A stretch of DNA of 64,000 nucleotides, taken from positions 62,001-126,000 of the forward strand of contig NZ_AP019785.1 in NCBI RefSeq assembly GCF_019670005.1. The letters are read 5' to 3'. Positions 17,964-59,586 of the stretch are shown here, one piece after another. Each line of letters opens with the position of its first letter. Within the stretch, counting starts at the first letter, position 1. The DNA is from Methylomagnum ishizawai. Its GTDB lineage: Bacteria; Pseudomonadota; Gammaproteobacteria; Methylococcales; Methylococcaceae. The notes beneath the pieces are model-generated. The model had not been told where the DNA came from. It was given only the letters and a program-made list of their open reading frames with translations, and ran no database searches. A program made the translations under genes and the position numbers.

Positions 17964-19380
17964 CAGCCCTTTCAAAGTGACTACTTCTTCTTCCTAAGTA
18001 ATTGATATGTCGAGACATGTGGCTGTTTCGGGTCGTAGGGCGGTTTGTCGATGGGCTTTTTCGGGCCGCGCGGATGCTTTTTGAGGGTACGCAACGGGAT
18101 GTTCCGGGCGGTTTCGCGCAGCCACGCGGCGAATTCCGCCGGGGTTTGTTCGGAGACGAACAGCCAGTCGCCGACCCCGCTGAGTTGGATGAGCGCGAGG
18201 AAAGTGGCGGCGATCTCGTGGGAGAGATAATACCCGGAGATATCCTTGGACACGGGTTTTCCATGGGCGCAGTCCAGCGCCGAGATCATGACCGAGAAGA
18301 GGTTATAGGCGACCAGGGCCAGGGCGAATCCGAACAGGGCGGCCTTGGGATAGGCCAGGGTTTCGATCTCGGACTTGAAATGTTTTTCGACGTGTTGGAA
18401 CGCGGTTTCCAGGGTCCAGCGCCTGCGGTAGAGGTCGGCGACGGTGGCGGCGGGTATGTCCGCCGGGAGGTCGGTCAGGATATCGACGAAGGCATCGCCG
18501 TCGCGGGTGGGTTGTTCGAGTTCGACGCGGACGAGGCGATAGGGCCGCCCGGCCACGCCGACCCGCTTTTCCAAAAGCCGCCCGCCGCCCTGTTCCCCGG
18601 CCTGGGAAAACAGGGTTTCCTCGGTCAGCGGCAGGTTCAGGTGCAAGCGCATCAAGGCGTGGGCGTTCCGGCCCTGGAGCCGGTCGAGGAATCCCACGGT
18701 GCAGAAGTTGCGGTCGGCGATCCACAGTTCGCCGGCCTTGGGGATACCGGCCACGGCGTCGAGCAGGCGGCGCTCCTGGGCATGTCCGTCCTCGCAAGGG
18801 AACACGTCCCGCATCAGGCGGCGCTCCGGGTCGAACACCACCAGCGACTTGCCCGGCAACGCGGCACCGCCGACCTCGCGGTGGACGGCGAGGCGTTTCT
18901 CGCTCGCCGCCAGACAGTTGCCGTCGAGGAGGCGGACCGGATAACCCGGCAACCAGGGTTCGGGGGTGAAACCCAGGGCATCGAGAATATCCGACAGGTC
19001 TTCCGAGGTATCGCGCAGCAGGGCTTGGGACACGGATAATTCAACGCCCTTGAGTTTCTCGTAGAGCGCGGATACCGTTACCCCCAGGGGTTCCGGGTGT
19101 TTCTGGTAGGCCGCGTTGATCGAGGGATGGACCTTGAGGACCACGCTCAGCATGAGGTCGCACACCGTCGAAAATAGGATTTCCCGCGTGTATTGCTCCT
19201 TCGCGTTCTCCAGGAAAATCCTGTCCAGCCTCTCCGCCGCAAAGCAGCGTTCCAGTAGGCCGTGCAGCAGGCAGGACAGGGGCATTTTCTGGCGGAATAG
19301 CTCTAGCATTGATCTCGACTATTGGTGTTGGTATGTTGAGCGCCGATAATACTATCGGTTATTTCAGTTTGAAAGGGCTG
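17964..19380 (-). mobile_element. IS4-family element copy 1
   Basis: 1417 bp with inverted ends CAGCCCTTTCAAA. It is flanked by an 11-bp direct repeat TGTCTAGGGAC (17953-17963 and 19381-19391), typical of IS4 elements. It inserted across the right edge of the IS5 element at 16808-17957. A near-identical second copy lies at 58170-59586. Confidence 0.9.
17981..19309 (-). CDS. IS4-family DDE transposase
   Basis: 442 residues. Catalytic residues sit in VRLLDGNCLAASEKR (first D), WIADRNFCTVGFL (second D) and the Y-x2-R-x3-E signature LYRRRWTLETAFQHVEKH (E). A lysine-rich tail ends the protein. It is identical to the copy at 58187-59515 except one residue (LKKHPRG here, LTKHPRG there). It should be active. 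Confidence 0.93.
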   Translation of the reverse strand: MLELFRQKMPLSCLLHGLLERCFAAERLDRIFLENAKEQYTREILFSTVCDLMLSVVLKVHPSINAAYQKHPEPLGVTVSALYEKLKGVELSVSQALLRDTSEDLSDILDALGFTPEPWLPGYPVRLLDGNCLAASEKRLAVHREVGGAALPGKSLVVFDPERRLMRDVFPCEDGHAQERRLLDAVAGIPKAGELWIADRNFCTVGFLDRLQGRNAHALMRLHLNLPLTEETLFSQAGEQGGGRLLEKRVGVAGRPYRLVRVELEQPTRDGDAFVDILTDLPADIPAATVADLYRRRWTLETAFQHVEKHFKSEIETLAYPKAALFGFALALVAYNLFSVMISALDCAHGKPVSKDISGYYLSHEIAATFLALIQLSGVGDWLFVSEQTPAEFAAWLRETARNIPLRTLKKHPRGPKKPIDKPPYDPKQPHVSTYQLLRKKK

Positions 19381-26171: not shown

Positions 26172-27086
26172 TCAACCCACCACCGGAGTCCAGGGCCCGC
26201 CAGCCGGCCAGTGTCGCGGGGGGTGGGCGTCGGCGCTCGCCGCCGCGATGACCGGAAGCAAGAAATCCCGGAGCGATGCCACGACGTCCTCCAGGGGCGG
26301 CGCTTCCAGCCTGTTCTTTCCCAGGAACGCCCGCCACTGCGTCCGCTTTTGCGCGTCCCGCGCAAAACCGTCGGTCAGGCCCAAGGGGGCGCCCGGGGGC
26401 AACCCCGTCTTGCGGCGATCGAAGGTTGCCCGGAGGGCGCGGCGCAGGGTGTCGCCGTCGAATCCGGTGTGGCGCGACAGGATCCAGAGGTCGAAATAAT
26501 CCTTCATCCGGCTGTTGGCGATCCCGAGCGAGGCCAATGCCTCCACCTTTTCAGCCACCACGGTATAGCGCGGATAGACGCGCAGCCTCGGTGCCGTGAA
26601 CTCCGGGAGCATCACGGGGTACTGGGCGTCCTCCGGCCCCGGCGTCACGGCATCGCCGAAACCGATGTCGATCTGCATGGGGCAGCGCGCGCCGTCGATC
26701 AGCCCGAGCAAGGTGACGCGCACGCCGGCGTAGTTGGCCTCCTTCCGGATCTCCGCCGCCCGGACGGTGTCCGGCCGGAACATCATCCCGTCGTCGGCGT
26801 CGACCACGCAGACTTCCTGGAAGACGGCTTCGAGGCTTGGCAACTCGGCCGGGCCGAATCCGAGGAAGTCGGCGTCCCTGGTCGGGCGGTGCGGGATGTC
26901 GAACCACAGGTCGAACAGCAAGGCACCCTTGAGCAGGAACTGGTCGGCGTGGGGGGAAACACTGAGCCGGTACAGCAGGCGCTCCAGCGCGTAGCGGGTC
27001 AGGACCAGATTGAAGTCCTGCCGGGTTTCGCGGGCGCGGTTGAGCAGGCGTGCCCGCACGGATGCCGCTAGGTTCCGTTCGCTCAT
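26172..27086 (-). CDS. abiEii: AbiEii-type nucleotidyltransferase toxin
   Basis: 304 residues from ATG 27086, which overlaps the antitoxin stop (ATGA); the longer frame to 27182 is inside the antitoxin gene. It carries the AbiEii nucleotidyltransferase signature: LLKGALLFDLWF, then RPTRDADFLGFG (acidic pair for metal), with a later MQIDIGFGDAVTPG and KVEALASLGIANSRMKDYFDLW. Type IV AbiE toxins transfer nucleotides to target RNA and give phage defence or growth arrest when unneutralised. It forms an operon with the gene upstream. Confidence 0.9.
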   Translation of the reverse strand: MSERNLAASVRARLLNRARETRQDFNLVLTRYALERLLYRLSVSPHADQFLLKGALLFDLWFDIPHRPTRDADFLGFGPAELPSLEAVFQEVCVVDADDGMMFRPDTVRAAEIRKEANYAGVRVTLLGLIDGARCPMQIDIGFGDAVTPGPEDAQYPVMLPEFTAPRLRVYPRYTVVAEKVEALASLGIANSRMKDYFDLWILSRHTGFDGDTLRRALRATFDRRKTGLPPGAPLGLTDGFARDAQKRTQWRAFLGKNRLEAPPLEDVVASLRDFLLPVIAAASADAHPPRHWPAGGPWTPVVG

Positions 27087-27682
27087 GGCAGGCTTTCCAG
27101 GTAGGGGCGCATCACATTGGCCACCCTGCACGGCGCCGCGAACCGCCACAGTTCGTCCATGCTGGACCGCCTGGCCCGCCACGCCTCCCGTAGCGCCTCC
27201 AGCGCGACATCGAGACCGATCTTGTTGCGGAACTTGAAGCAGTCGGCCACCGTCCGGGCGACGTTGGTCACCCGCACCGGCACGCCGTCGATGACGTGTT
27301 CTTCGATCCCTTCGGTCAGCGCGGCGCCGGAGAAGCGAACGATGCGCAGCGGGGGATAGTCCATCCTCGGCGCGCGCGCCTTGTTGGGGATGGCCAACCA
27401 GACCTCGGACGGTGACTGCGTGGTGAGGTCGTGCACGCGCAGCGCCGACAGCAGGCAGACGATGCCTTGCGGGTGTTTGCGCGCGACCCCGGCCAGCGTG
27501 CCATGCTCCGACACGGCGCGGTCGGGACGGCCATACAGGCCGCGCCCCACCCGGGCGAGCCGACCCTGCCGGACCAGCCGGGTGAGGGCGACACTGGGCA
27601 GCCCAAGCGCAGCGAGGTCGCGCGGGCGGATCAGGCCGCGCTCATCGGCCAGGTCCAGAATGGTCTGATGCGAGCTTTGCAT
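27083..27682 (-). CDS. abiEi: AbiEi-type antitoxin/transcriptional regulator
   Basis: 199 residues from ATG 27682. The frame is open to 27814, but the family start (HQTILDLADERGLIRPRDLAALGLPS) fits here. An N-terminal winged HTH is followed by the AbiEi antitoxin domain (QGIVCLLSALRVHDLTTQSPSEVWLAI; FKFRNKIGLDVALEALREAW). AbiEi proteins repress their own promoter and block AbiEii without direct binding. It overlaps abiEii by 4 nt, so the two are translationally coupled. Confidence 0.9.
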   Translation of the reverse strand: MQSSHQTILDLADERGLIRPRDLAALGLPSVALTRLVRQGRLARVGRGLYGRPDRAVSEHGTLAGVARKHPQGIVCLLSALRVHDLTTQSPSEVWLAIPNKARAPRMDYPPLRIVRFSGAALTEGIEEHVIDGVPVRVTNVARTVADCFKFRNKIGLDVALEALREAWRARRSSMDELWRFAAPCRVANVMRPYLESLP

Positions 27683-27799
27683 GCCGCCATGATGTTGTCT
27701 TACGTCGGTAGATGTCAATGACCGCCGACAAAATACAACCGGTATGATTGCCCTTGCCCGCCGATGCCGCGATCCAACCGCTTGATCCGTCCGTGCGCA

Positions 27800-28050
27800 A
27801 TCCATTGACTGCATGGCGCCGTATCGCGGCCTTCAGGCCAGTTGCGGGGAACGCCGCTTGCGCAAGGCCTCCGCCCACCAGAGGTGGTGCCGGATTTGAT
27901 TTCCAGGGCGAGGAGCCTTCCCGCCTTTCCCGAACAAATCCACCCCGCGCCGGGTGCTGTCCCGCCAGAAATAAATGCTGCCTCCCGTTGGCAATGGATT
28001 TCGGGTTGCCCTTTTGGGGCGGGCATCATCGAGGAACGTCCCAAGCCTAT
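27800..28050 (-). pseudogene. C-terminal remnant of a DUF4143-type ATPase
   Basis: In two frames one reads GSIYFWRDSTRRGVDL and then, one frame over, GRLLALEIKSGTT. Together these match the end of DUF4143-containing AAA ATPases (FWRD...EVDLxIE...LxPVEIKSG), with a 1-2 nt indel between them. The piece is cut near 28088 by the IS5-family element. No product expected. The remainder of 27683-27800 holds only the antitoxin leader. Confidence 0.5.
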
Positions 28051-28088
28051 GGCTCCAGACGGCGGCTTATCTGGGAAAAAAATCTTAA

Positions 28089-29022
28089 GAGGACATCCGG
28101 CACATCTTGTGCCTTGCGCGGCGAACGCTTAAAAGACCCGTCTTTTGCGAAGCGGAAGCGGAGGAGACCCATGAGTTGCCTGGAAATCTCGGACCGGCTG
28201 TGGGAGCGGGTAGAGCCATTGTTGGAGCCGTTCAAGCGGCGCAGGCCGGGCGGCTCCAAGCCGCTGGAATTCCGGACGGTCATGAACGGGATTCTGTATG
28301 TGCTCAAGACCGGTTGCCAATGGGATTGCCTGCCGGCCTGCTACGGCTCGAAAAGCGCGGTCCACGAGCACTTTCAGAGATGGGTTGCCGCCGGCGTGTT
28401 CAAGGAGATGTTCCGCTGGTCGGCGGCGGAGTACGAGGAACTCGAGGGGTTCGACCTGGCTTGGCAGTCGATGGACGGCAGCCTGGTGCAGGCCCCGGTC
28501 CGCCAAGCCCGCTGCCAGAAGGACGAGGGCCTGGGGCGCAATCCCACGGATCGTGGGCGCAGCGGTGGCAAGATCCACCTTCAGGTGGACGGGAAGGGGA
28601 TGCCTTTCGCCGTCGCGCAGGCCGGGGCCAACGTGCACGACAGCCGCCTGGTGACGGTCACCGTCGAGGCGGCCGTGATCGAGGCACCCGCCGACGCCGG
28701 GCAAAGTCCCAGGCATCTTTGCCTGGACAAAGGGTATGGCTACGAACGGGTCGAGCGGGAAGTCGCGGGACTGGGCTACACCCCCCATATCCGCAAGATC
28801 GGCGAGGAGAAGCGTTCCTGCGACTCCGAGCCAACCCACCCCGCGCGGAGGTGGGTGGTCGAGCGCGCTTTCGCCTGGCTCAAGGGCTTCCGGGCCATCC
28901 GAACCCGCTACACCTGCCGGGGAGCCAACTATCTGGCCTTCCTTCAGTTGGCGTGCGCCCTGATCCTGGGAAGACGGATCGAGGCCAAAACCGTGTAAGC
29001 AGTTTATGTGCCGGATGTCCTC
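28089..29022 (+). mobile_element. IS5-family element, copy C1
   Basis: 934 bp with inverted ends GAGGACATCCGGCACAT. Adjacent trinucleotides are TAA (left) and TTA (right), whereas copy C3 has TAA on both sides. C2 has TTA left and TAA right, so C1 and C2 look as if they exchanged outer flanks. A 4-bp reading TTAA/TTAA is also possible for this copy. Confidence 0.9.
28171..28998 (+). CDS. IS5-family transposase
   Basis: 275 residues. The N-terminal DUF4096-like region (SDRLWERVEPLLEPFKRRRPGG, CQWDCLP) is followed by a DDE core: D in QSMDGSLVQAP, D in LCLDKGYGYERVE, E in RRWVVERAFAWLKGFR. It is the same as the proteins at 53115-53942 and 55811-56638 apart from one residue (WERVEP here, WEHVEP there). 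Intact. Confidence 0.93.
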   Translation: MSCLEISDRLWERVEPLLEPFKRRRPGGSKPLEFRTVMNGILYVLKTGCQWDCLPACYGSKSAVHEHFQRWVAAGVFKEMFRWSAAEYEELEGFDLAWQSMDGSLVQAPVRQARCQKDEGLGRNPTDRGRSGGKIHLQVDGKGMPFAVAQAGANVHDSRLVTVTVEAAVIEAPADAGQSPRHLCLDKGYGYERVEREVAGLGYTPHIRKIGEEKRSCDSEPTHPARRWVVERAFAWLKGFRAIRTRYTCRGANYLAFLQLACALILGRRIEAKTV

Positions 29023-29804: not shown

Positions 29805-30570
29805 TCAGATAGCCATGGGAATGGCGCGGTAGTTCCATCGGGGAAGGAAGTCGTCGAAGACGATCCTCATGGTTTCGAGGAAGTCGGCGGAGCACTTCTT
29901 CCCCGTGGCGTAGGTCCCGGCCAGGATATCCACCGTCACCCTCAATCCCTTGGAGGTCTTGGCCCGCGCCATGAATTGCCGGGCGATGGCGACGGAATGG
30001 AACACCACGCCCTGGCAGGCGCGGGTGATGTGCGGGAACAGCCGGTGCTCGATGGGGTTGTGCTTCGAGCAATACGGTGGGTAGTGCGCCACGCGGATTT
30101 CCAGGCCCAGCCGGTCGGCGAGCCGTTGCAGGGCGTCCTTGAACACATGCCGGTTGGAGGCGTTGCTGCCGCCCCCATCGCACAGCAGCAGCAACCGGCG
30201 GCGGCCGGGATAGTTCCGGCGACCGTGCCGCTCCCACCAATGGGCGATGCTGTCGCAACAGAACTCGCTGGTGTCATGGTCCAGAACGTCGACGGGCACC
30301 TGGGTATGGGTATGGCCCTCCCGGGCGAAGTTGCCGACCAGTTCCTTCTTCTTGGTGTCGATGCTGATCACGGGGTCGCCCGCCGCCAAGTATCCCGCCT
30401 TGAGCTTGGCGATGTTGCGGAACTGCGCGTCGCGGTCGGGATGGGCCCCCAGCGACTTCTTCTTGCGCGCCTTGCGCTGCCCCAGGCCGTGCCGCCTCAT
30501 CAGCTTGCGGACCGTGTGGCGGCTCGCCGGGCTTCCCATCTCCGTGTGCGTCAAAGCGGTACGCAGACCT
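29805..30570 (-). pseudogene. ISAzo13-family transposase, N-terminally truncated
   Basis: Contains HPDRDAQFRNIAKLK, VISIDTKKKELVGNF, LLLLCDGGGSN and CSKHNPIEHRLFPHI, the core of ISAzo13 transposases. The usual ~40 residues between the KKKELVG motif and DHDTSEF are shortened, and the N-terminal HTH half is missing. The right part ends near 30570, where the AT-richer biosynthetic locus begins, so this remnant marks one border of that locus. Confidence 0.75.
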
Positions 30571-30639
30571 GAACGAAAACGCCCGAGTGCACTACTATTA
30601 ACAAAACTTGGCAACTCTCTACCCCACTCAGAGAACATC

Positions 30640-30915
30640 ATGACGAAATCCGAATTGACCTATTTTATTAAGCAAGAAATCGCTGATCGCTTTGAAAAAC
30701 CACTCGATGCGATTAGTGATGACACCGATCTCATTGAAGATCTGGGTGCCGACTCCCTAGAAATGACGGAGATTCTGGTCAGAATTGAAGACAAACTGGG
30801 CGTCCGGTTTGAGGACGACACGATTGCACTCCTGGGTACACCTGCCAAGCTCGCCGAATTCATGGAAAGCTATGTGGTATCCATCGATTATCACAGCATT
30901 CCAACCAACGGATGA
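30640..30915 (+). CDS. Acyl carrier protein
   Basis: 91 residues from ATG 30640. Standard ACP helix pattern with the phosphopantetheine serine in DLGADSLEMTEIL (residue ~45) and an acidic helix II (RIEDKLGVRFEDD). It is the first gene of the lower-GC locus and overlaps the next frame by 4 nt (ATGA). It is free-standing, so it probably supplies or holds an acyl or aminoacyl intermediate for the locus rather than serving general fatty-acid synthesis. Confidence 0.9.
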   Translation: MTKSELTYFIKQEIADRFEKPLDAISDDTDLIEDLGADSLEMTEILVRIEDKLGVRFEDDTIALLGTPAKLAEFMESYVVSIDYHSIPTNG

Positions 30916-31049
30916 AACGCAGGGTTGTCATTACCGGTGTGGGAGCGATTGACCACAATGGGCACTCGGCCCCCATGATCTGGGACAACGTGGCCCAAGG
31001 GGCTAGTAGTCGTATTGAGAAGATATACAGCGTGAGGGAGCATTTTTAA
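30912..31049 (+). pseudogene. N-terminal stub of a beta-ketoacyl-ACP synthase
   Basis: 45 residues, MKRRVVITGVGAIDHNGHS...WDNVAQGASSRIEKI, which matches the start of FabF-type ketosynthases. It then ends in SVREHF and TAA, before any catalytic Cys-His-His. ATG overlaps the ACP stop, so the pair came as a coupled ACP-KS unit. No continuation was found in the ~70 nt before the next gene. It is likely a deletion remnant. Confidence 0.75.
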
Positions 31050-31118
31050 TGCAATTCTGGCTTTATATAACATGCAGCATCCTGCAACTGGTCGTCAACA
31101 CAATCTAAGGATATTCCG

Positions 31119-32183
31119 ATGAAGGTTACTAGCATTGATGGAATGGGCAGCTATGGCGTTTATATAGATGGCGTGGATTTTGAGTATCTAACCGACGAGC
31201 AGTGGAGAGAGATCGGCCATATCCACATGAAGAGTCTGGTCACCATTATTCGTGACTGCAATCTAACCTGCGAGAACCAACTGGGATGGATCAGGAAGTT
31301 TGGCGAACCCAGACATGGCCTGTATTACAGGCTGATGAGGAAATACGGCATAACATCATTGGGGCTTATTGTTCGACTGGGTCTGAGCGCGAGTAGCCCG
31401 ATGGATGAAGAAGATAAAAGCGTGATACGGGAACATATCCGATATCACCAGCCTTCCTCCGAAGGTTCGGGCGTCACGCGGGTTAGTGGGATCAAGGATG
31501 ACAATGGGAGGTCGATCGGACTATTTAATGATGGTGAATTGCTTTGGCATTCTAATGAGGCGGCTACCCTGACCTTTGCCCCCGGCGTGGCGTTGCTGGG
31601 TGGGAAGTGCATGGTGGGTTCGTCAACGGGTTTTTTGCAAACCGCGGATTATTATGAATCGGTCAGCGAATCATTCCGCTCGGAACTGGATGAGATGGTT
31701 TTGACTCACCGCCATACGGAGGGAAAGATAAACCCGGCCCTCAATGACAATATGGAGCGTTTAAACATGTGTCCAGTCGATGATGTGGAGATTCCGATGG
31801 TCATCATGAGTCCTGGGGGCATTAAGGGGTTGCACTACCCACTAAATACGGTTTATGGGGTTCGTGGAATGAATAAGGCCGAAAGCGATAGCCTCTTCGC
31901 AGAAATCGACAAACATTTGTACGTCGATCACTATATTTACGATCATTGGTACAAAAATGACGGCGACCTCCTGTTGTTTGACAACTCGATCACACTGCAT
32001 AGACGTCTTGGGAATGTAACTGGTCGTCTCGCCTATCGCATCCAGCACGACTACAGCGAGTTGCAGGATGATTTCTGGCAACCTTACTTCCAGAAAGAGT
32101 TTGCGGATAAATACAAGGAAGCAATCACAGACTTTGTCGAGACACTGGGCATCCAGAGTTTTAAGTTGCCTCAAGTCGGCTAG
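31119..32183 (+). CDS. TauD/TfdA-like Fe(II)/2-oxoglutarate oxygenase
   Basis: 354 residues. The jelly-roll core has LLWHSNEAATLTFAPGVALLGG (residues ~141-160) in the place of the TauD WHxD motif. The distal ligand and 2OG-binding residues are FDNSITLHRRLG (His ~293) and AYRIQHD (Arg ~307). The expected HxD reads HSN, followed by E, so metal binding may use Asn or Glu, or be weakened. Such enzymes hydroxylate or desaturate small molecules, including carrier-bound amino acids. It lies between the ACP and radical SAM genes of the locus and probably tailors the NRPS substrate. Confidence 0.75.
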   Translation: MKVTSIDGMGSYGVYIDGVDFEYLTDEQWREIGHIHMKSLVTIIRDCNLTCENQLGWIRKFGEPRHGLYYRLMRKYGITSLGLIVRLGLSASSPMDEEDKSVIREHIRYHQPSSEGSGVTRVSGIKDDNGRSIGLFNDGELLWHSNEAATLTFAPGVALLGGKCMVGSSTGFLQTADYYESVSESFRSELDEMVLTHRHTEGKINPALNDNMERLNMCPVDDVEIPMVIMSPGGIKGLHYPLNTVYGVRGMNKAESDSLFAEIDKHLYVDHYIYDHWYKNDGDLLLFDNSITLHRRLGNVTGRLAYRIQHDYSELQDDFWQPYFQKEFADKYKEAITDFVETLGIQSFKLPQVG

Positions 32184-32251
32184 TTAAGCGATTCCAGATA
32201 AATATATATCTTGGGCGTTCATCGTAATATCTGTGTCAGGTATATTTGAAA

Positions 32252-33319
32252 ATGCAAAGAAGCCGTCTCGATCATTACCTTTTGGACAATCCATCTCTGC
32301 AAAGGCGCTATAAGAAAATCAAGAAGCATGTCAATCGTCTGATCATTTCAGGCTATGACATTACTAATCGATGCAATCTCCGCTGCAAAGGGTGCTACTT
32401 CTTTGAAGGCGAACGCTCCTCCAGATTCAATGATGACCGGACCCTGGATGAGTTCGACGCTTTTTTTGCCAGTGAAGTCAAGCGTGGTGTGACCATGCCC
32501 CATTTTGCCGGGGCAGAACCGGCAAAAGTTCCGGAGAGGCTCGCATTAGCCGCCAAATACTGGAATCGAGGCGTTATCTATACGAATGGCACCTTGCCCA
32601 TCGCGCCGGATCTGCCCTTTATGCTGCATATCTCGCTTTGGGGGGCGGAGGAAACGGATGCGCGCCTGAGGGGGAAGCATGCCTTCAGAAGTGCGCTCGA
32701 TAACTTCTCTCGGGATGCGCGGGCGGTGTTTATCTTTACCATAAACCGCCAAAATATCGGTGAAATGGCGGAGGTGACAGATATCTGCGCCCAGCATGGG
32801 ACTAAACTCTCGTTCAATCACTATAGTCCTACGCGCTGGTACGGATCGTCAGGCACTGAGATGCCCAACGAAATACGTTTCAGAGGCAAAGGACGTTTCA
32901 GTGGCCCTGACGACCAGCTTGCTTTACGTATCGAAGACCTGAAAATTATAAAAGATCACATACAGGAACTGCTTATCCGTTATCCGAATACCCTGATTTA
33001 TTCATCTTATTACAACGAGCGCATCAACAGCCCTGATGTCCTTTTCAATATTAACTCACAAACGGGTGTTGCGACGAATTGTGCCATACTCAATTCCACT
33101 CATCATCGTGAATATCGAACCGACCTAACCTGGGATGACGCCGATTGCTGTATTCCTAATACCGATTGTGCTACCTGCCGCCATTATGTTGCTAATTACA
33201 GTAAGATCATGGGCGAATTTCATAACCATCTTGACAGCATTAACCAATTCGAAAAATGGCTGGAGGTTTATGAGACCTGGTGCAAATTGAATATTAGAAG
33301 CTGGGATACCCTGGACTGA
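32252..33319 (+). CDS. Radical SAM enzyme
   Basis: 355 residues from ATG 32252. A CNLRCKGC motif (Cys 41, 45, 48) binds the SAM-cleaving 4Fe-4S cluster; HFAGAEPAKVPER stands where GGEP is usual, and HISLWGAEETDARLRG follows. C-terminal cysteines (TNCAILN, DDADCCIPNTDCATCRHY) suggest one or two auxiliary clusters in a SPASM-like region. The substrate is unknown. Position directly before the NRPS gene (56-nt gap) suggests action on its amino-acid or peptide product. Lower GC content matches its neighbours. Confidence 0.88.
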   Translation: MQRSRLDHYLLDNPSLQRRYKKIKKHVNRLIISGYDITNRCNLRCKGCYFFEGERSSRFNDDRTLDEFDAFFASEVKRGVTMPHFAGAEPAKVPERLALAAKYWNRGVIYTNGTLPIAPDLPFMLHISLWGAEETDARLRGKHAFRSALDNFSRDARAVFIFTINRQNIGEMAEVTDICAQHGTKLSFNHYSPTRWYGSSGTEMPNEIRFRGKGRFSGPDDQLALRIEDLKIIKDHIQELLIRYPNTLIYSSYYNERINSPDVLFNINSQTGVATNCAILNSTHHREYRTDLTWDDADCCIPNTDCATCRHYVANYSKIMGEFHNHLDSINQFEKWLEVYETWCKLNIRSWDTLD

Positions 33320-33375
33320 GCAAGTAGAAGCTTCCGGATATTCCGCTCTATGCTAGTGAATGGCTGACTAAATTT

Positions 33376-36300
33376 ATGGGTAATAAATCTGCACCCCAAA
33401 CCCATCCTTTTCTGGTTCATCCTAGCCCCACGCCGCTTTATCCCTTGACGCAGGCCCAACAAGATATCTGGTTCCATCAAATATTGCATGAGGAACTGCC
33501 ACTCTACAACATCGGCGTAAAGGTGCATCTACCTGGTACAGTGGATGTTGCGCGATTTCGGGAGTCTGTCCGCTTACTGGTATTGAAACACGATTGCCTG
33601 CGTATTCAATTAACCCAACGCTGGGATGAATATGGAGTCCCCCAACAGACCATTGCCCCGCCCTTTGAGCCTGAGGTGACCCTACATGATTTCCGTGAAG
33701 AAGCTGAGCCACTGATTGCCGCAACGCAGTGGATGCAGCGACGTTTCGTGGAACCGTTTGTACTCGACGATTTTCCATTGTTCCGCTACGACCTGGTCCG
33801 GGTAGCCGAGGCTGACTACTATTTGCTGATGCAATACCATCATCTAATCACGGACGGTTGGAGTAGTTCCCTACTGGTTTGCTCGCTTGGAGGGATCTAT
33901 ACGGCCTTGGCCTGCGGAGAGACGCCTGACCTATGGGGTCCATCCTACCTCGATTTTATCGCTAGCGATCAAGAGTACAGATGTTCCGATCAATACCAGA
34001 AGCACGGAGAATTCTGGAAAGGGCAATTCACTTATCCACCCGAACCTTTGTTGATACCCAAGTCGGGAAGCCATTTACCAGCACCCAGCGATTGTCGCAG
34101 CGCGCAGGTGTCGAGAGCGCTGATCCAACGACTCGAGACCTTGGCTAAGGGTTATCAGGTGAGTTTTTTTCACGTTCTGATCGCCGTCCTGGCAATCTAT
34201 TTCACACGCACCAGAGGCGTGGATGAACTGGTGATTGGTCTTCCGATGCAAAATCGGTCCAGTGTCCAGTTCAAGCAAACTGCGGGACTCTTTGCCTGGG
34301 TCTTCCCCTTCAGATTACAGGTCGATATCAGGGAATCTTTCGATGTTTTCTTACAGCGGATTGCTAAGCAGCTTATGCAACGCTACCGCTATCAGCGCTA
34401 TCCCATCGGTGCCATCTACCATGAGGTTAGGCCGGTCGCGGCTCACCGGCAACTATTCGATATCGTTCTTTCCTACGAAAGGCGGGACTACGATACCTCT
34501 TTTGGGGAAATCGTTAGCTACACAGAAGGCGTGCAGAATGATGCGGAACAGATTCCATTGGCGTTGTATTTTCGAGATTTCCACCTCCACTCGGATGCCC
34601 GTTGGGATTTTGTCACGAATCGGGCCTACTTCGACGACCAACAGTTGGCGGCTATGCAAAGCCATCTGTTATATCTGCTGGAGGCCGTTGCCAAGCAACC
34701 GAGGAGCACGCTCGACCTGATTTCCCTGGTACCCGAGTCTGAGGTGGCGCAATTACATGCCTGGGGCCAGGGCCCCCGCACCGCTCCCCTGCAACATACC
34801 GTGGTAGGGCTGTTCGAGGCACAGGTGGCATGTCGTCCCGAGGCCACGGCCCTGGAGTTTGGCGAACGGCGACTCAGCTACCGGGCGCTGAACAAGGCGG
34901 CCAACCGCGTAGCCCATGGCCTGATGGGCCGGGGCGTAGGCCCGGATATACTGGTGGGCCTGATCTGCGAGCGCTCGATCGAGCTGATCGTGGGCCTGCT
35001 GGGCATCCTCAAGGCCGGAGGGGCCTATGTACCCATCGATCCGGACTATCCGCAGGCGCGGATCAAATATCTGCTGGAAGACAGCGGGGTGCGGATATTG
35101 CTGACCCAGCGGGGCCTGCGGGAGTGGATCCCGCAGGGTGAGGGCGTAGAAGTCTTGTGCCTGGATGAAACGGAGGAATGGCCGGTCTCGGTGGAAAATC
35201 CCGTCAGATGGGCCGGACTGAATGATCTGGCCTACGTGATCTACACCTCCGGCTCCACTGGACGGCCCAAGGGTGTCATGCTGCCTCATGGTGTATTAGC
35301 CAATCTCATAGCCTATAGTCGTCAACAGCCTGGGCTTGGGAAAGCCTATAGAACGCTACAGCAGACATCGTTGAGTTTCGATGTTTCCTTACAGGAAATC
35401 TTTTCCACGTTCGATACCGGAGGCTGTTTAGTATTGATCGATGAAGCTACACGGCGGGATAGTGAATTACTATGCGGTTACCTGGAAGCACATCGAATCG
35501 AGCGGCTTTTTCTGCCCTATGCGGGCTTGACGCAGCTAACGGAAATTGCCGCAAAAAATCCTCCCAGCAGTCTTGTCGCCGTAATCACGGCCGGTGAGCA
35601 ATTACGCGTTACTTCATCAATACAGCAATTCTTTTCAGTGCTACCAGATTGTCATTTCTGGAATCACTATGGCCCATCAGAAACCCATGTTGTCACCACA
35701 TATGCATTGGAGGGCATTCCAGAGGGTTGGGCAACCTTTCCGCCCATAGGTCGACCTATCGCCAACACCCAGATTTACGTCCTCGACCCACAGGGGCAGC
35801 CCGTGCCCATTGGAGTTCCCGGCGAGCTGTACATTGGTGGAATGGGCTTGGCGCGGGGATACTTGAACCGTCCCGAGCTGACGGCGGAGCGCTTCGTCGA
35901 GTTGGAAGTGTTTGGCCAGCGGCAGCGGATGTACCGCACGGGCGACCGGGTGCGCTGGCAGGAGGACGGACAGTTGCTGTTCCTAGGACGGCTGGACCAC
36001 CAGATTAAGCTGCGCGGCTACCGCATCGAACTGGGCGAGATCGAAGCGACACTGGTCTCTTTGTCGGGAATTAAGGAATGTGTGGTGATGGTTCGAGAGG
36101 ATCATCCAGGTGAGCGACGACTGGTCGCTTACGTCGTTCTCGACCAGGAAAGCGATCCAATCGGGCCGGATCTGCGCGGTGCCTTGGCGGAACAGTTGCC
36201 GGACTACATGATCCCAGTCGCCATTGTGCCTTTGGACAGTCTGCCATTGACACCGAATGGCAAGATAGACCGTGCGGCCCTGCCGGCACCGGAGATTGAT

Positions 36301-39300
36301 CGAGCGGCGCTCGGCACTGCCTATGTCGCGCCGCGTAACCCGATAGAAGAGACCCTGGCAGAACTGTGGCAGGAAATCCTGATGCTCAATGAGTTGCCGG
36401 GGATACACGACAACTTCTTTAACCTAGGGGGCCACTCGTTGTTATCCGCGAGACTGGTCAGCCGCATCAAGACTGGCTTTGGTCTGGCCTTGTCCCTGCG
36501 GGATTTCTTTCAGTCGCCGACAATTGCCAGTCTGGCTGAGTTGCTAAAACAGCCCGCCAACGGGGATGGGATCGGGCAAGCAGAACAACATCTGCGTTCT
36601 GGAGTACGCAGGTTGCTCGATCCAGCTATTTGGCATCAATTACAAAGCTATGTGATGAGTTGGCAGGGCGAACGGGCCGGTCCGGAAAGCCTGATTGTTG
36701 GGCATAATCTGGAAGGCACCCGCCCGCCGCTGTTTTGGGTCTTTCAAGGCCAAGAGGAATTTGCCCAACTTGGCCATTACCTGGGCGTGGATCAACCCCT
36801 CTATGGTATGCGCTCCGGGCACCTGGTCATGGATTATACCGAGGACAATATTCAAGCCCTGGCACTCGATTATGTGCGGGAGATCCAGGCGCTGCGCCCT
36901 CGCGGGGCGCTGGTCCTGGGGGGTAACTGCCAGGGAACCCTTATTACCATGGCTATTGCCCAGCACCTGATGCGCCGGGAATGCCATGTGCTGTTGCTTA
37001 TCCTCATGGAATGGACCTTTTCGGCACAACCCTATGCCGGCCCAGTGGGGCTGATCTTCGGGCGTGAAAGCGATGTCACCAATCCATATCGCCATTTCCG
37101 GCAACCAGAATTGATGTGGCAGCGGGCTTGGCCCCGGCATCGGGTCGAATTTATCCCTGGCGCATACGGTGAACTCTTCCGTGAGCCCAATGTGCAGAGC
37201 CTGGCGGGGGCGGTCTCACGCCTGATCGATGATGCGCGGAATATCCCTTTGAATCTACTGCCAGCCGAAGGCAGGAAGGCTACGATAGCCGTCGATGAAC
37301 CGCCACTGCGGATGTGGCCGGGAGAACGGTGCCTGATTGCGGTACGGGTTACCAATACCAGCCCGCTTTCCTGGCCAGACGGCAGGGAATTGGGGCTGTT
37401 CCTGGTCAACCAATGGTGTAAAGGCGATGGCAAGCCTTTGATGCTCAAGGACGGGGGCATCCCCCTGCCAGCCCTGGCCAGTGGCGAGGAGACGGTGCAA
37501 TGGCTACCCATTCGCGCTCCGAAGACATCGGAGGCACTTCAGCTACGGTTGAAAGTGGTGGAAGAGGGTGTGTTCACTTGGTTAAGGCACGATTATGAGC
37601 CACTGCAACTATCGGTTCAAATCGTTCCAAACACTGAAGCAACCGTGGCGTCGGTGGCGCAATTGGGAAACCAATATAGCCCCCCGATCCTCATTGGTGG
37701 AACCGGCGGATCAGGCACCCGTGTCATATCCCGAATTCTGCAACAACTCGGCGTACATCTGGGGACGCGATTCAATCCCTCCGACGACAGCATCGAGTTG
37801 GCGGGCGAGTGGTGGGCGCGGTTGTTGCCCTATTGGAAGGCAGAACTCCCCATCGAGATCGAATCCGCCATTGTCCATGCCCTGGGCGCGAAGCTCGCGG
37901 TATTTCTGGATGGCGTGGCGAAGAACAGCCAGTGGGGGTGGAAATTGCCGCCGACGGTCTTTTTCGCACCCTTCTGGCACCGGCTCTGGCCGGGCGTGCG
38001 TTGCATCCATGTGGTGCGGGACGGGCGTGACATGGCGCTGTCTCACAACCAGAAGCAGTTGAACTATCTGGCCCCCGTGGTCCTGCAAAGCGATGAACTG
38101 TTGCTGGACAAGGCGCAACGCAGTATTCGCCTGTGGGATCGCCTTAATCTGTGGTTGGCTGAGTACGCCGAGGCCAAGATGCCGGGACAATACTTGCGTA
38201 TACGCTACGAGGACCTGTGCGCTCAGCCCAGGGTGGAGATCGAACGCCTGATGAAATTTCTCGGTCTGGAGGGAGATGCCGAGGCGTTGGTCAAACAGGT
38301 ACAACCGAGTCCCGGTATCGGTCGCTGGCGACAGCAGGCAAAGGACTGGCTAATACAGGTCGAACACGCCGGGCGGGAAGGATTGGCGCGCTTTGGCTAT
38401 CTGGATGGAGGAAAACCAGTTGACGGAATCCCATCGTTACCCGCTCAGCCAGACCTCTACGATGCAGGACTCATTGCATTCCAACGGGGAGAATATGATC
38501 GGGCCATCGAACAACTGAACCCGGCTCTGGACCGGGTCAACCGCTTGCTACCGGCCCTGGCGGAGTCTTTCCACCGTCAACATCGCTATGATGAGGCCGA
38601 GCGAGTTTGGCGTCAGGCCCTGGCGCTCAACCAGAATGACGGTCGTTTATGGCTGGGACTGGGGCTGAGTTGCCAATCGCTTGGCAACTCGAATGAGGCC
38701 GTGAGCGCCTATAAAACGGCATACGAGAGAGGCCTGATGCGTCCGGTGGAGGCGTTGACACCACTGTTCGAGTTGGCGCAATCCGCGCATGAGGGGATCG
38801 CCGAGGTGGCTGCTTTAGTTAACCGCGCACTGAAACAGACTCCTCAGGATACGGAATTGCTTGCCCTGGTGGCCCAGGTGCAATTGCAATCGAACGAGCC
38901 AGATGCCGTAGTCGCAACGGTTCATAAGCTGATCGCGCTACGTCCTGACCAATTCGGCCCGGTGGTGCAGATCATTTGGAAAATCATTGGACGGCGCATG
39001 CTGGCGGAAGCTAGATTGCTGATCACAGAGTTGATGGAACGGCTGCCCGATGAGCCTGCGGTGCTACTTCTGCTAGTCCATTACACACTTCGTATAGACC
39101 ATGACGCTAAAAAGACATTGAGCCTTTGTGACGCCGTACTCAAGCGGGAACCCCATCGGTTCGTGTTTTACGGGTATAAAGGGGAATGCCTCTCTGAATT
39201 AGGTGAGCTGGATCATGCCTTAGCGGCTTTCGACCGGGCGATCGAAGGATTAGGCGACCGGGTACCAGTGCATTTCTTGGCGAAACGTGGACAGCTACAG

Positions 39301-39432
39301 CAAAGACGCGGGGTATTTGATAAGGCGAAAGAAGACCTGCTGAGGGCCATAGAGATAAGTCCTGATACGAAATGGATCAGAGATGCTCTGAACAGTTGTA
39401 TTGCGTTAGCAGAAGGAGCGGAGTTTCAGTAA
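33376..39432 (+). CDS. NRPS C-A-T-TE fused to sulfotransferase and TPR repeats
   Basis: 2018 residues in one frame. Condensation domain ~20-450 (active site HHLITDG at ~155). Adenylation ~470-965 (IYTSGSTGRPKG at ~621, YRTGDRVRW, NGKIDR). Its binding-pocket residues, aligned by eye to GrsA, read close to DVQ-A-IAHVV, which resembles proline codes. Carrier domain ~975-1060 (NLGGHSLLS, Ser ~1018). Thioesterase-like ~1090-1300 with GGNCQG, i.e. a cysteine nucleophile; the usual His position reads GAYGELF. A beta-sandwich ~1305-1415 precedes a PAPS-type sulfotransferase ~1435-1655 (GGTGGSGTR for the 5' phosphosulfate loop, HVVRDGRD for the 3' phosphate). TPR-like helices run ~1690-2018. Domain limits are approximate. 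Confidence 0.88.
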   Translation: MGNKSAPQTHPFLVHPSPTPLYPLTQAQQDIWFHQILHEELPLYNIGVKVHLPGTVDVARFRESVRLLVLKHDCLRIQLTQRWDEYGVPQQTIAPPFEPEVTLHDFREEAEPLIAATQWMQRRFVEPFVLDDFPLFRYDLVRVAEADYYLLMQYHHLITDGWSSSLLVCSLGGIYTALACGETPDLWGPSYLDFIASDQEYRCSDQYQKHGEFWKGQFTYPPEPLLIPKSGSHLPAPSDCRSAQVSRALIQRLETLAKGYQVSFFHVLIAVLAIYFTRTRGVDELVIGLPMQNRSSVQFKQTAGLFAWVFPFRLQVDIRESFDVFLQRIAKQLMQRYRYQRYPIGAIYHEVRPVAAHRQLFDIVLSYERRDYDTSFGEIVSYTEGVQNDAEQIPLALYFRDFHLHSDARWDFVTNRAYFDDQQLAAMQSHLLYLLEAVAKQPRSTLDLISLVPESEVAQLHAWGQGPRTAPLQHTVVGLFEAQVACRPEATALEFGERRLSYRALNKAANRVAHGLMGRGVGPDILVGLICERSIELIVGLLGILKAGGAYVPIDPDYPQARIKYLLEDSGVRILLTQRGLREWIPQGEGVEVLCLDETEEWPVSVENPVRWAGLNDLAYVIYTSGSTGRPKGVMLPHGVLANLIAYSRQQPGLGKAYRTLQQTSLSFDVSLQEIFSTFDTGGCLVLIDEATRRDSELLCGYLEAHRIERLFLPYAGLTQLTEIAAKNPPSSLVAVITAGEQLRVTSSIQQFFSVLPDCHFWNHYGPSETHVVTTYALEGIPEGWATFPPIGRPIANTQIYVLDPQGQPVPIGVPGELYIGGMGLARGYLNRPELTAERFVELEVFGQRQRMYRTGDRVRWQEDGQLLFLGRLDHQIKLRGYRIELGEIEATLVSLSGIKECVVMVREDHPGERRLVAYVVLDQESDPIGPDLRGALAEQLPDYMIPVAIVPLDSLPLTPNGKIDRAALPAPEIDRAALGTAYVAPRNPIEETLAELWQEILMLNELPGIHDNFFNLGGHSLLSARLVSRIKTGFGLALSLRDFFQSPTIASLAELLKQPANGDGIGQAEQHLRSGVRRLLDPAIWHQLQSYVMSWQGERAGPESLIVGHNLEGTRPPLFWVFQGQEEFAQLGHYLGVDQPLYGMRSGHLVMDYTEDNIQALALDYVREIQALRPRGALVLGGNCQGTLITMAIAQHLMRRECHVLLLILMEWTFSAQPYAGPVGLIFGRESDVTNPYRHFRQPELMWQRAWPRHRVEFIPGAYGELFREPNVQSLAGAVSRLIDDARNIPLNLLPAEGRKATIAVDEPPLRMWPGERCLIAVRVTNTSPLSWPDGRELGLFLVNQWCKGDGKPLMLKDGGIPLPALASGEETVQWLPIRAPKTSEALQLRLKVVEEGVFTWLRHDYEPLQLSVQIVPNTEATVASVAQLGNQYSPPILIGGTGGSGTRVISRILQQLGVHLGTRFNPSDDSIELAGEWWARLLPYWKAELPIEIESAIVHALGAKLAVFLDGVAKNSQWGWKLPPTVFFAPFWHRLWPGVRCIHVVRDGRDMALSHNQKQLNYLAPVVLQSDELLLDKAQRSIRLWDRLNLWLAEYAEAKMPGQYLRIRYEDLCAQPRVEIERLMKFLGLEGDAEALVKQVQPSPGIGRWRQQAKDWLIQVEHAGREGLARFGYLDGGKPVDGIPSLPAQPDLYDAGLIAFQRGEYDRAIEQLNPALDRVNRLLPALAESFHRQHRYDEAERVWRQALALNQNDGRLWLGLGLSCQSLGNSNEAVSAYKTAYERGLMRPVEALTPLFELAQSAHEGIAEVAALVNRALKQTPQDTELLALVAQVQLQSNEPDAVVATVHKLIALRPDQFGPVVQIIWKIIGRRMLAEARLLITELMERLPDEPAVLLLLVHYTLRIDHDAKKTLSLCDAVLKREPHRFVFYGYKGECLSELGELDHALAAFDRAIEGLGDRVPVHFLAKRGQLQQRRGVFDKAKEDLLRAIEISPDTKWIRDALNSCIALAEGAEFQ

Positions 39433-39832: not shown

Positions 39833-40915
39833 TCAGGCCGCTTTTGGAGGCGTGGCGTGAACCTCGGATTGGGTCTTGGCTGGCGCGGCTGATCGTTCCG
39901 GGTTCAGGTGTACGGCCGGGATCGGCCGCCAATTGCGGAGGCCACCGGTCCATCGTTGCGGATGCCGTGCGCGGGCGGCCTCATAGACGGCTCGGCGCCG
40001 CTTCAGGAGGTCGGCGTCCTGGCCGGCATGCCGCTCGGCGGGGGTGACGAAGCGGATCGCGCCGTGGCGGTGCTCGTGGTTGTACCACCGGACCAGGCCT
40101 TCGGCCCAACGGCGCGCCGCCGCCAGGTCGTCGAACGGCCGGACCGGATGGTCGGGCCGGTATTTCAGGGTCTTGAACACCGCCTCGGCATAGGGGTTGT
40201 CGTTGCTGACGGCGGGCCGGCTGAAGGACGCCGCGACGCCGAGGGATTGCAAGGTCGCGAGCATGGTCGAGCCTTTCATGGGCCCGCCGTTGTCCGAATG
40301 TAGGACGACCTGGCCCGGGGCCACGCCCTCGCGCCGACATACGTCGCGCAGGAGTTCGCCGGCCAGGGCGCTGCTTTCCTCGCCGTAGACCTGCCAGCCC
40401 ACGACCTTGCGGCTGAACAGGTCGAGGAACAGATAGAGGTAGAAGAACTGGCCCCGGATCGCGGCGGGCAAATAGGTGATGTCCCAGCAGTAGACTTGAT
40501 TGGGAGCCGTGGCGCACAGGGCCCTGGGCTTGCCGCGCGGCTGTCCCGGCCGTTCGGCCCGGCGGTGCGCCAACTGGTTTTCGGCCTTGAGGATGCGGTG
40601 GAAGGTCGATTCCGAGGCCAGGTATTCCCCCCGGTCCGCCAGCCGGGGCACGATCTGGCACGGCGGCAAATGGCCGAACTCGGGGGAGTTGGCCACCGCC
40701 AGCACCTTGGCCCGCTCGGCCTCGCTCAGCTTGTGGGGTGGAACGTACACCCGCGCGGGCCGCCGGTCGGCCTGGACGCCGTCCCCGGATCGCCAGCGCT
40801 GGACGGTGCGGGCGGACAACCCCAGCACCCCGCAGGCCCGCTCCAGGCGCGCGCCGGCGGCGGTGGCCTCGTCGATCAGGGCGGTCACGGTTTCGCGCTC
40901 TTGCGGCGGGGTCAT
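39833..40915 (-). CDS. IS3-family OrfB transposase
   Basis: 360 residues, the same protein as at 3029-4111 with the DDE residues in CWDITYLP, HSDNGGPM and PYAEAVFKTLKY. It overlaps orfA by 4 nt (ATGA). Probably the functional source of transposase, together with copy 1. Confidence 0.92.
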   Translation of the reverse strand: MTPPQERETVTALIDEATAAGARLERACGVLGLSARTVQRWRSGDGVQADRRPARVYVPPHKLSEAERAKVLAVANSPEFGHLPPCQIVPRLADRGEYLASESTFHRILKAENQLAHRRAERPGQPRGKPRALCATAPNQVYCWDITYLPAAIRGQFFYLYLFLDLFSRKVVGWQVYGEESSALAGELLRDVCRREGVAPGQVVLHSDNGGPMKGSTMLATLQSLGVAASFSRPAVSNDNPYAEAVFKTLKYRPDHPVRPFDDLAAARRWAEGLVRWYNHEHRHGAIRFVTPAERHAGQDADLLKRRRAVYEAARARHPQRWTGGLRNWRPIPAVHLNPERSAAPAKTQSEVHATPPKAA

Positions 40916-58169: not shown

Positions 58170-59586
58170 CAGCCCTTTCAAAGTGACTACTTCTTCTTCC
58201 TAAGTAATTGATATGTCGAGACATGTGGCTGTTTCGGGTCGTAGGGCGGTTTGTCGATGGGCTTTTTCGGGCCGCGCGGATGCTTTGTGAGGGTACGCAA
58301 CGGGATGTTCCGGGCGGTTTCGCGCAGCCACGCGGCGAATTCCGCCGGGGTTTGTTCGGAGACGAACAGCCAGTCGCCGACCCCGCTGAGTTGGATGAGC
58401 GCGAGGAAAGTGGCGGCGATCTCGTGGGAGAGATAATACCCGGAGATATCCTTGGACACGGGTTTTCCATGGGCGCAGTCCAGCGCCGAGATCATGACCG
58501 AGAAGAGGTTATAGGCGACCAGGGCCAGGGCGAATCCGAACAGGGCGGCCTTGGGATAGGCCAGGGTTTCGATCTCGGACTTGAAATGTTTTTCGACGTG
58601 TTGGAACGCGGTTTCCAGGGTCCAGCGCCTGCGGTAGAGGTCGGCGACGGTGGCGGCGGGTATGTCCGCCGGGAGGTCGGTCAGGATATCGACGAAGGCA
58701 TCGCCGTCGCGGGTGGGTTGTTCGAGTTCGACGCGGACGAGGCGATAGGGCCGCCCGGCCACGCCGACCCGCTTTTCCAAAAGCCGCCCGCCGCCCTGTT
58801 CCCCGGCCTGGGAAAACAGGGTTTCCTCGGTCAGCGGCAGGTTCAGGTGCAAGCGCATCAAGGCGTGGGCGTTCCGGCCCTGGAGCCGGTCGAGGAATCC
58901 CACGGTGCAGAAGTTGCGGTCGGCGATCCACAGTTCGCCGGCCTTGGGGATACCGGCCACGGCGTCGAGCAGGCGGCGCTCCTGGGCATGTCCGTCCTCG
59001 CAAGGGAACACGTCCCGCATCAGGCGGCGCTCCGGGTCGAACACCACCAGCGACTTGCCCGGCAACGCGGCACCGCCGACCTCGCGGTGGACGGCGAGGC
59101 GTTTCTCGCTCGCCGCCAGACAGTTGCCGTCGAGGAGGCGGACCGGATAACCCGGCAACCAGGGTTCGGGGGTGAAACCCAGGGCATCGAGAATATCCGA
59201 CAGGTCTTCCGAGGTATCGCGCAGCAGGGCTTGGGACACGGATAATTCAACGCCCTTGAGTTTCTCGTAGAGCGCGGATACCGTTACCCCCAGGGGTTCC
59301 GGGTGTTTCTGGTAGGCCGCGTTGATCGAGGGATGGACCTTGAGGACCACGCTCAGCATGAGGTCGCACACCGTCGAAAATAGGATTTCCCGCGTGTATT
59401 GCTCCTTCGCGTTCTCCAGGAAAATCCTGTCCAGCCTCTCCGCCGCAAAGCAGCGTTCCAGTAGGCCGTGCAGCAGGCAGGACAGGGGCATTTTCTGGCG
59501 GAATAGCTCTAGCATTGATCTCGACTATTGGTGTTGGTATGTTGAGCGCCGATAATACTATCGGTTATTTCAGTTTGAAAGGGCTG
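58170..59586 (-). mobile_element. IS4-family element copy 2
   Basis: Same 1417-bp element as at 17964, flanked by a 10-bp repeat ATATGAAGGC (58160-58169 and 59587-59596). Apparent differences from copy 1 are minimal, so the two copies are recent. Confidence 0.92.
58187..59515 (-). CDS. IS4-family DDE transposase
   Basis: 442 residues, differing from 17981-19309 by one Lys/Thr change near the C-terminus. Catalytic motifs LLDGNCLAAS, IADRNFCTVG and YRRRWTLETAF are intact. Confidence 0.93.
   Translation of the reverse strand: MLELFRQKMPLSCLLHGLLERCFAAERLDRIFLENAKEQYTREILFSTVCDLMLSVVLKVHPSINAAYQKHPEPLGVTVSALYEKLKGVELSVSQALLRDTSEDLSDILDALGFTPEPWLPGYPVRLLDGNCLAASEKRLAVHREVGGAALPGKSLVVFDPERRLMRDVFPCEDGHAQERRLLDAVAGIPKAGELWIADRNFCTVGFLDRLQGRNAHALMRLHLNLPLTEETLFSQAGEQGGGRLLEKRVGVAGRPYRLVRVELEQPTRDGDAFVDILTDLPADIPAATVADLYRRRWTLETAFQHVEKHFKSEIETLAYPKAALFGFALALVAYNLFSVMISALDCAHGKPVSKDISGYYLSHEIAATFLALIQLSGVGDWLFVSEQTPAEFAAWLRETARNIPLRTLTKHPRGPKKPIDKPPYDPKQPHVSTYQLLRKKK

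Follow-up and report, generated by a model that had tools for sequence, protein, structure and literature searches.

What does a nonribosomal peptide synthetase (NRPS) make when a single module is joined, in one polypeptide chain, to a sulfotransferase? The question is raised by a locus of Methylomagnum ishizawai that lies in the 64,000 nucleotides of DNA analyzed here (contig NZ_AP019785.1, forward-strand positions 62,001 to 126,000), which we call the window and from whose first letter positions are counted. One open reading frame (ORF) of the + strand, 33376..39432, with its ATG at 33376 and a stop codon ending at 39432, encodes a synthetase of 2018 amino acids (aa) composed, in this order, of: (i) a condensation (C) domain; (ii) an adenylation (A) domain; (iii) a thiolation (T) domain; (iv) a thioesterase (TE)-like domain; (v) an immunoglobulin-like (Ig) beta-sandwich; (vi) a sulfotransferase (ST); and (vii) a tetratricopeptide repeat (TPR) region. 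The answer proposed here, which we hold tentatively and with somewhat less than even confidence, is that the protein is a lipo-amino-acid synthetase with a single module and adds sulfate to what it assembles.

The C domain (33439..34755) corresponds to a Pfam Condensation match at residues 22-460 (E 4e-74) and has its HHLITDG motif at residues 155-161. It is followed by the A domain (34813..36264), placed by Pfam (AMP-binding at 480-830, E 1e-80; AMP-binding_C at 888-963), by its match to solved chains and by motif positions, and by the T domain (36352..36546; PP-binding at 993-1057), whose LGGHSL motif begins at residue 1017 and presents Ser1021. With HHxxxDG, the A core motifs and LGGxS all in place, these three domains constitute an NRPS module. 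The TE-like domain (36628..37251) carries the motif GGNCQG from residue 1182, with Cys1185, and is supported by alignment and by its resemblance to the NocB TE fold, its Pfam Thioesterase match (residues 1157-1211) reaching 22.6 bits, under the cut-off of 26.4. Behind the Ig beta-sandwich (37252..37629), the ST (37651..38445) matches Sulfotransfer_3 (PF13469) at residues 1437-1632 (E 1.5e-14; 55.3 bits vs. a cut-off of 27) and Sulfotransfer_1 (38.5 bits vs. 22). Its sequences GGTGGSGTR (1441-1449) and VVRDGRDMALS (1546-1556) are taken, by their motifs, as the 5' and 3' loops that bind 3'-phosphoadenosine-5'-phosphosulfate (PAPS). Judged by profile, loops and matches to solved structures, the domain is a PAPS sulfotransferase. 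Finally, Pfam TPRs cover residues ~1724 to 2000 in the TPR region (38545..39369). The exact ORF, the Pfam matches and a structure model thus agree with the first-pass annotation, a reading of the letters alone, which had described this frame as C-A-T-TE, a beta-sandwich, an ST with both PAPS loops, and TPRs; the ST had been expected after residue ~1420, one of the points on which that reading was to stand or fall, and the profile match found there is above its cut-off.

The structure model of residues 1085-1690, built with 33 related rows, has a mean predicted local distance difference test score (pLDDT) of 80.1 and a predicted template modelling score of 0.52, with model residues 380-444 being poor, and shows three successive folds, namely an alpha/beta hydrolase, a beta-sandwich and a sulfotransferase. 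Since the sandwich could not be judged within this three-domain model, residues 1293-1418 were folded alone (pLDDT 89.7). The resulting model resembles the Ig domain of NBR1 (4ole; Foldseek E 1.4e-5) and the FW domain of ILRUN (6vhi; Z 10.5, 2.6 Å over 104 residues), with many other sandwiches at Z 8-9.7; hence, the sandwich announced at first pass is real. Although the copy in the window matches no Pfam family, PF16158 (N_BRCA1_IG) matches 14 of the 23 family members at E up to 0.1 (best, 6.3e-6). The fusion is no artefact, because a second species of the genus carries a counterpart of 2003 aa, 92% identical in protein to that of the window, in which the main Pfam domains recur (a Thioesterase match there misses the limit of 1e-5). 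A single-module NRPS that carries a sulfotransferase in the same chain is, in consequence, a sound description of this gene product.

Both catalytic domains of the module give clues about the substrates. A comparison of the C domain with solved chains puts the starter C domain RzmA-Cs first (7c1k/7c1h; 147 bits, the next other chain reaching 100 bits); in addition, the domain studied here is N-terminal in its module, beginning at residue 22, as a starter C domain would be. Ser164 aligns to an Arg in 7c1h and to an Ala in 7c1k, a site that we take to be R148 of RzmA. Acyl length is set by R148 in RzmA (acetyl) and by A149 in HolA (octanoyl), and smaller side chains admit longer acyls (excerpt of PMC7804268). 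With Ser at this gate, a medium or long acyl chain is therefore expected on the product. Due to the starter-like C domain and to an acyl carrier protein (ACP) encoded upstream, an N-acyl amino acid is a likelier product than the aminoacyl or dipeptidyl one suggested at first pass.

As for the amino acid, the adenylation pocket, read by anchors, consists of D669, V670, Q673, A716, I737, A739, H764, V772, V773 and K963 (DVQAIAHVVK), which, by the customary pocket position rules and reference codes, is presumably one letter off the usual proline code. The best of the solved chains matching with one A-domain stretch is TycB1 (9bfd_B, 423 bits), which uses proline; code and match together uphold the earlier view of a proline-like pocket. 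In Methylocucumis oryzae, the third genome with the fusion, the A domain is interrupted by a methyltransferase (PF08241, 30.9 bits) and the pocket, read by eye, is ~DLFGGALTYK, unlike that of the window and presumably, by the same rules, suited to a small residue. Considering this methyltransferase and the differing pocket, the line may require an N-alkylated substrate in either version, be it proline or an N-methyl amino acid.

The fusion belongs to a conserved cluster, at ~30640-39432, because three genomes share its gene set. In the window, all on the + strand, the genes upstream of the synthetase are: (i) 30640..30915, an ACP of 91 aa with an intact serine site, GADSLEM (PF00550, 49.4 bits vs. 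20.8), 92% identical to that of the sister species (locus L077, 4666-4935); (ii) 30912..31049, a ketosynthase (KS) remnant of ~32 N-terminal residues, recognized by a tblastn search in which the complete KS of L077 was the query, and by a gap in blastn; (iii) 31119..32183, a TauD-family protein of the Fe/2-oxoglutarate oxygenase type (PF02668, 61.7 bits vs. 27) in which W-H-S-N replaces W-H-x-D; and (iv) 32246..33319, a radical S-adenosylmethionine (SAM) protein with the motif CNLRCKGC and further C-terminal Cys residues (PF04055, 27.9 bits, just below 29.5). Ten Cys of the radical SAM protein stand at matching places across the three genomes; with 19 NCBIfam models, every score fell far below its cut-off. 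The sister species has the intact order ACP-KS-TauD-radical SAM-synthetase on a contig of 4.6 Mb, and the KS encoded there scores above the cut-off of the fabF model (517 bits vs. 494). In Methylocucumis oryzae (L069/L079) the gene set is the same, but ACP, KS and TauD, the last of them shortened, lie on the opposite strand. The ACP is thus found in all three clusters and an intact KS in two of them.

The TE-like domain raises the question of how the chain leaves the module. The fold is that of an alpha/beta hydrolase, close to the TE domains of NocB (Z 18.7, 2.5 Å over 170 residues) and SulM (Z 17.4, 2.4 Å over 178 residues), and the best solved sequence match of its family is AB3403 (4zxh, E 3.4e-13). 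This family bears the signature YGMRSG...GGNCQ...NP...HGxFFxEPN and, given its frequent Ig partner, is here called TE-Ig. When 84,980 named species were scanned with two peptide patterns, a search that misses divergent members and may leave out records near the window, 37 loci with a TE-Ig relative were obtained, one of which (M. oryzae) has the fusion. These named loci, except L092, were aligned together with the protein of the window, L077, L009, L078, L070, L074 and L075, counting duplicate contigs once (L069, L071, L072 and L073 equal L079, L088, L089 and L101), which gave 43 rows, 42 of them readable (L114 ends before the motif). The nucleophile place is Cys in 42 of 42 (Cys1185 in the window) and the catalytic-His place is His in 36 of 42; the rows that lack it have Tyr (the protein of the window, L077, L081 and L108), Met (L091) or Pro (L107, where the alignment is poor). 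What the first-pass annotation called thioesterase-like is, then, a hydrolase by fold and a noncanonical one by its Tyr1264 where the catalytic His is expected; the Cys is retained, but the missing His makes ordinary hydrolysis doubtful in this genus.

Members of this family are found in varied surroundings. A TE match is present in 36 of the 37 named loci (L092 has none in the greedy ORF set), with an Ig match behind it in 18 of 37 by phmmer, whose query misses likely ones such as that of the paralog L009. In Xenococcus (L083) there is a C-A-T-TE-Ig-TPR protein, and in Gomphosphaeria (L081) a comparable protein whose A domain is partial and whose His place is taken by Tyr. The paralog in the same genome (L009, 9029-11431, - strand; counterpart L078 in the sister species) is a TE-Ig-TPR protein of 800 aa which has as neighbors, by Pfam, an adenylate-forming (AMP) ligase, a P450, a glycosyltransferase-TylF methyltransferase fusion and a radical SAM/SPASM protein. 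Similarly, four alphaproteobacterial loci (L090, L093, L094, L100) have a short separate TE-Ig protein with a P450 and an AMP ligase. A two-gene cassette, consisting of an A-T-ST gene and then a C-T-TE gene, occurs in L084-L087, L089 and L095, whose records are named Gammaproteobacteria, beta proteobacterium, Nitrosomonas, Akkermansiaceae, Cycloclasticus and Brevundimonas; the Ig was found in five of the six, and Sulfotransfer_3 scores ~92 bits in each of the three submitted to Pfam.

In total, a clear ST was seen in eight of the 37 named loci, seven times fused to an NRPS-type protein and once, in L082, as a separate gene (L099, with one weak distant match, is left out of the eight). This count comes from seven queries on loci of 3 to 21 kb, so that misses are soft. 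The ST of the window does not detectably belong to the cassette group: phmmer gave no match at 1e-3, and the best local alignments to two of the six cassette STs have 27 identities in 100 residues and 26 in 98. Since the cassette ST is of a different group, the TE-Ig family seems to have been paired with sulfation on at least two occasions.

Under the reading that we prefer, that of a lipo-amino-acid synthetase sulfating its own product, acyl chains would be carried on the cluster ACP, extended by the KS in those genomes that keep it, and handed to the starter C domain, which would join them to a proline-like residue loaded by the A domain onto the T domain. The sulfotransferase would then sulfate the tethered N-acyl-aminoacyl chain with PAPS, most likely on a hydroxyl put in by the TauD-type or the radical SAM enzyme. 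Subsequently, the Cys of the TE-like domain would take the chain over for release or, where the His has been lost, merely hold it; the Ig and TPR parts would be structural or serve for docking. The reactions, the acyl chain, the residue, the sulfation site and the sequence of events are here inferred from what was observed directly, namely the domain order, the motifs, the folds, the cluster genes and their conservation across the three genomes. Since there is reportedly a TE domain that transfers an aminoacyl chain without releasing it, holding or transfer of the chain would be credible. It can even be conceived, as a very doubtful extension, that TE and Ig together form a novel class of Cys domains for holding or transferring acyl chains and that, in this genus with its lost His, the attached sulfotransferase itself drives product formation: sulfation of the bound chain would set off elimination or transfer, a novel means of terminating an NRPS assembly line.

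A different outcome of sulfation must be weighed here, given that the ST and the TE-like domain share one chain and that an oxygenase-type gene lies in the cluster. As in curacin, a tethered beta-hydroxyl might be sulfated and then, upon hydrolysis, carbon dioxide and sulfate would be lost to leave an enamide or alkene, the sulfate not being retained. The haliamide ST-TE is described as homologous to that of CurM and has been proposed to form a terminal alkene (excerpt of PMC6274090). The sequence evidence from solved structures is a weak match of the ST to 4gox, entered as a polyketide synthase (E 0.26). We take 4gox to be an olefin-synthase ST, a group to which no closer match was obtained. 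In this synthetase, however, the TE-like domain (1085-1292) precedes the ST (1426-1690), the reverse of the curacin-type ST-TE order, and the TE of this genus lacks the catalytic His; we therefore regard the curacin-like route as unlikely.

It could also be thought, as was suggested at first pass, that the target of the ST is a protein or a glycan bound to the TPRs. Its best solved match is indeed a protein-tyrosine sulfotransferase (8w5z, E 1.6e-4), its fold matches that of TPST-2 (Z 16.0, 5.3 Å over 225 residues), and the TPRs lie C-terminal of it. Nevertheless, the M. oryzae version has a sulfotransferase with no TPR behind it, and TPRs are present on TE-like proteins without a sulfotransferase, both in the same genome (L009) and in cyanobacteria, the loci concerned being L081, L083, L009, L078, L074 and L075. 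For this reason the TPRs are unlikely to hold the sulfation target, and this alternative appears very improbable.

Several facts weigh against the preferred reading of a self-sulfating lipo-amino-acid synthetase. To begin with, the best solved relative of its ST is a protein-tyrosine enzyme and not one of the natural-product type. The metal triad of TauD/TfdA Fe(II)/2-oxoglutarate oxygenases is HxD/E...H. The TauD-type protein, despite its good profile match, departs from this triad in all three genomes, with H144-S145-N146...H294 aligned to the WHTD of 5bk9, and hence might not bind iron normally. The catalytic His of the TE-like domain is replaced by Tyr1264 in both species of the genus. In M. 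oryzae, the synthetase gene is spread over several frames in a draft contig. Moreover, 28 of the 37 named loci show no sulfotransferase with the queries used, and the pairing of TE and sulfotransferase is a count of loci and not a test against chance. Lastly, in the species of the window the KS has been lost by an internal deletion of ~1.1 kb relative to the sister species.

This last fact leads to another possibility, namely that the locus is decaying in the species of the window, the KS being deleted, the TE altered and the product no longer made. Only the remnant of ~32 residues is left, a search for a relocated KS in the genome found no other copy, and transposase genes flank the cluster on both sides (27748-28998, 29805-30641 and 39833-40915). 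In opposition to this, the frames of the synthetase, the TauD-type protein and the radical SAM protein are intact, and their ratios of nonsynonymous to synonymous substitution rates (dN/dS), computed against the sister species, are 0.29, 0.15 and 0.13, respectively. Tyr1264 is common to the sister species, which keeps its KS, and the next best KS of the genome, 48% identical, might stand in, or else the pathway may be changing. Decay is thus considered distinctly unlikely. By domains, dN/dS in the synthetase is 0.18 (C), 0.31 (A), 0.65 (T), 0.35 (TE), 0.20 (Ig), 0.34 (ST) and 0.47 (TPR); the values for T, TE and ST are rough because dS is very low (0.02-0.055), and the dS of C and TauD, near 0.37, makes recombination between lineages possible.

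The combination of parts in this synthetase seems rare. Genome sets that are samples from larger groups were scanned at the levels of order, class and phylum, with at most 3 to 4 candidates scored per genome, so that weak copies may be missed. With a TE-Ig-ST query, the order (301 genomes) yielded three genomes in which both parts stood together, in one gene or its broken frames, and the class (369) and the phylum (398) each yielded the window's own genome alone. The host is a gammaproteobacterial methanotroph, as follows from three genes of its genome above the cut-off of PF02461 (methane/ammonia monooxygenase family) and from its relative in the order, M. oryzae; the fusion is accordingly known from two methanotroph genera, with three genomes between them. 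Matches to the radical SAM protein (E up to 1e-15) occur in the same three of the 301 genomes. Its relatives in the class number 5 of 369, own genome included, and the neighborhoods of three relatives (L123, L124, L125) showed no KS, TauD, NRPS or ST by the queries used. Among plasmid records, 2433 matched and none covered more than 80% of the query, the best ten reaching residue 1218 at most. Matches to TE-ST-TPR in 25 of 38 genomes of the family (own included) were set aside as evidence of the fusion, since the listed rows from outside the genus span a single TE, ST or TPR stretch.

In general terms, four groups of known systems are comparable: (i) lipopeptide initiation modules (Cs-A-T; RzmA, CDA) share the N-terminal starter-like C, one A and one T and, in the case of CDA, an ACP as likely donor, while the window protein is a single module that runs straight into TE-Ig-ST-TPR; (ii) CurM of curacin and HlaB of haliamide share a sulfotransferase embedded in the assembly line and adjoining a TE, but at a polyketide terminus and in the order ST-TE, instead of T-TE-Ig-ST after an NRPS module; (iii) SulM and SulN of sulfazecin share a Cys-nucleophile TE and a PAPS sulfotransferase serving an NRPS, but SulN is a separate protein and the window pocket is, by eye, proline-like and not of the diaminopropionate type; and (iv) the AB3403 (4zxh) termination module shares C-A-T-TE with a Cys nucleophile, but has these four domains only, without Ig, ST or TPR. 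No ACP gene was found in the RzmA cluster (excerpt of PMC7804268). The TE of SulM carries a full Cys-His-Asp triad, which the window TE, with Tyr at the His position, does not complete, and the TE aspartate of AB3403 is in the usual place (excerpt of PMC11298585). Embedded sulfotransferases (CurM, HlaB) and a Cys TE with a separate sulfotransferase (SulM/SulN) are, then, already known. In titles and abstract beginnings of the open-licence literature, no description was found of a C-A-T-TE-sulfotransferase-TPR protein, of the TE-Ig family or of this cluster; NRPS-like clusters are mentioned in a survey of metabolite clusters in methanotrophs, with the word sulfotransferase absent from its main text (PMC11964084).

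Assembly-line sulfotransferases are few and instructive, as curacin and haliamide illustrate, and a compact case with one module allows the roles of sulfation in decoration and in chain release to be tested against each other. The TE-like family, with its signature, its frequent Ig partner and its two sulfotransferase groups, also offers a handle for genome mining.

Some further features of the surroundings can be recorded. Two copies of a DDE transposase, at 17981-19309 and 58187-59515 (- strand), differ at 1 of 1329 bases, and a pair formed by an AbiEii toxin and an AbiEi antitoxin (type IV toxin-antitoxin) lies upstream of the cluster at 26172-27814 (- strand). Finally, a large NRPS system, with open frames of 4377, 3322 and 4446 aa, is encoded on another contig of the genome (G000:C2:230855-264762).

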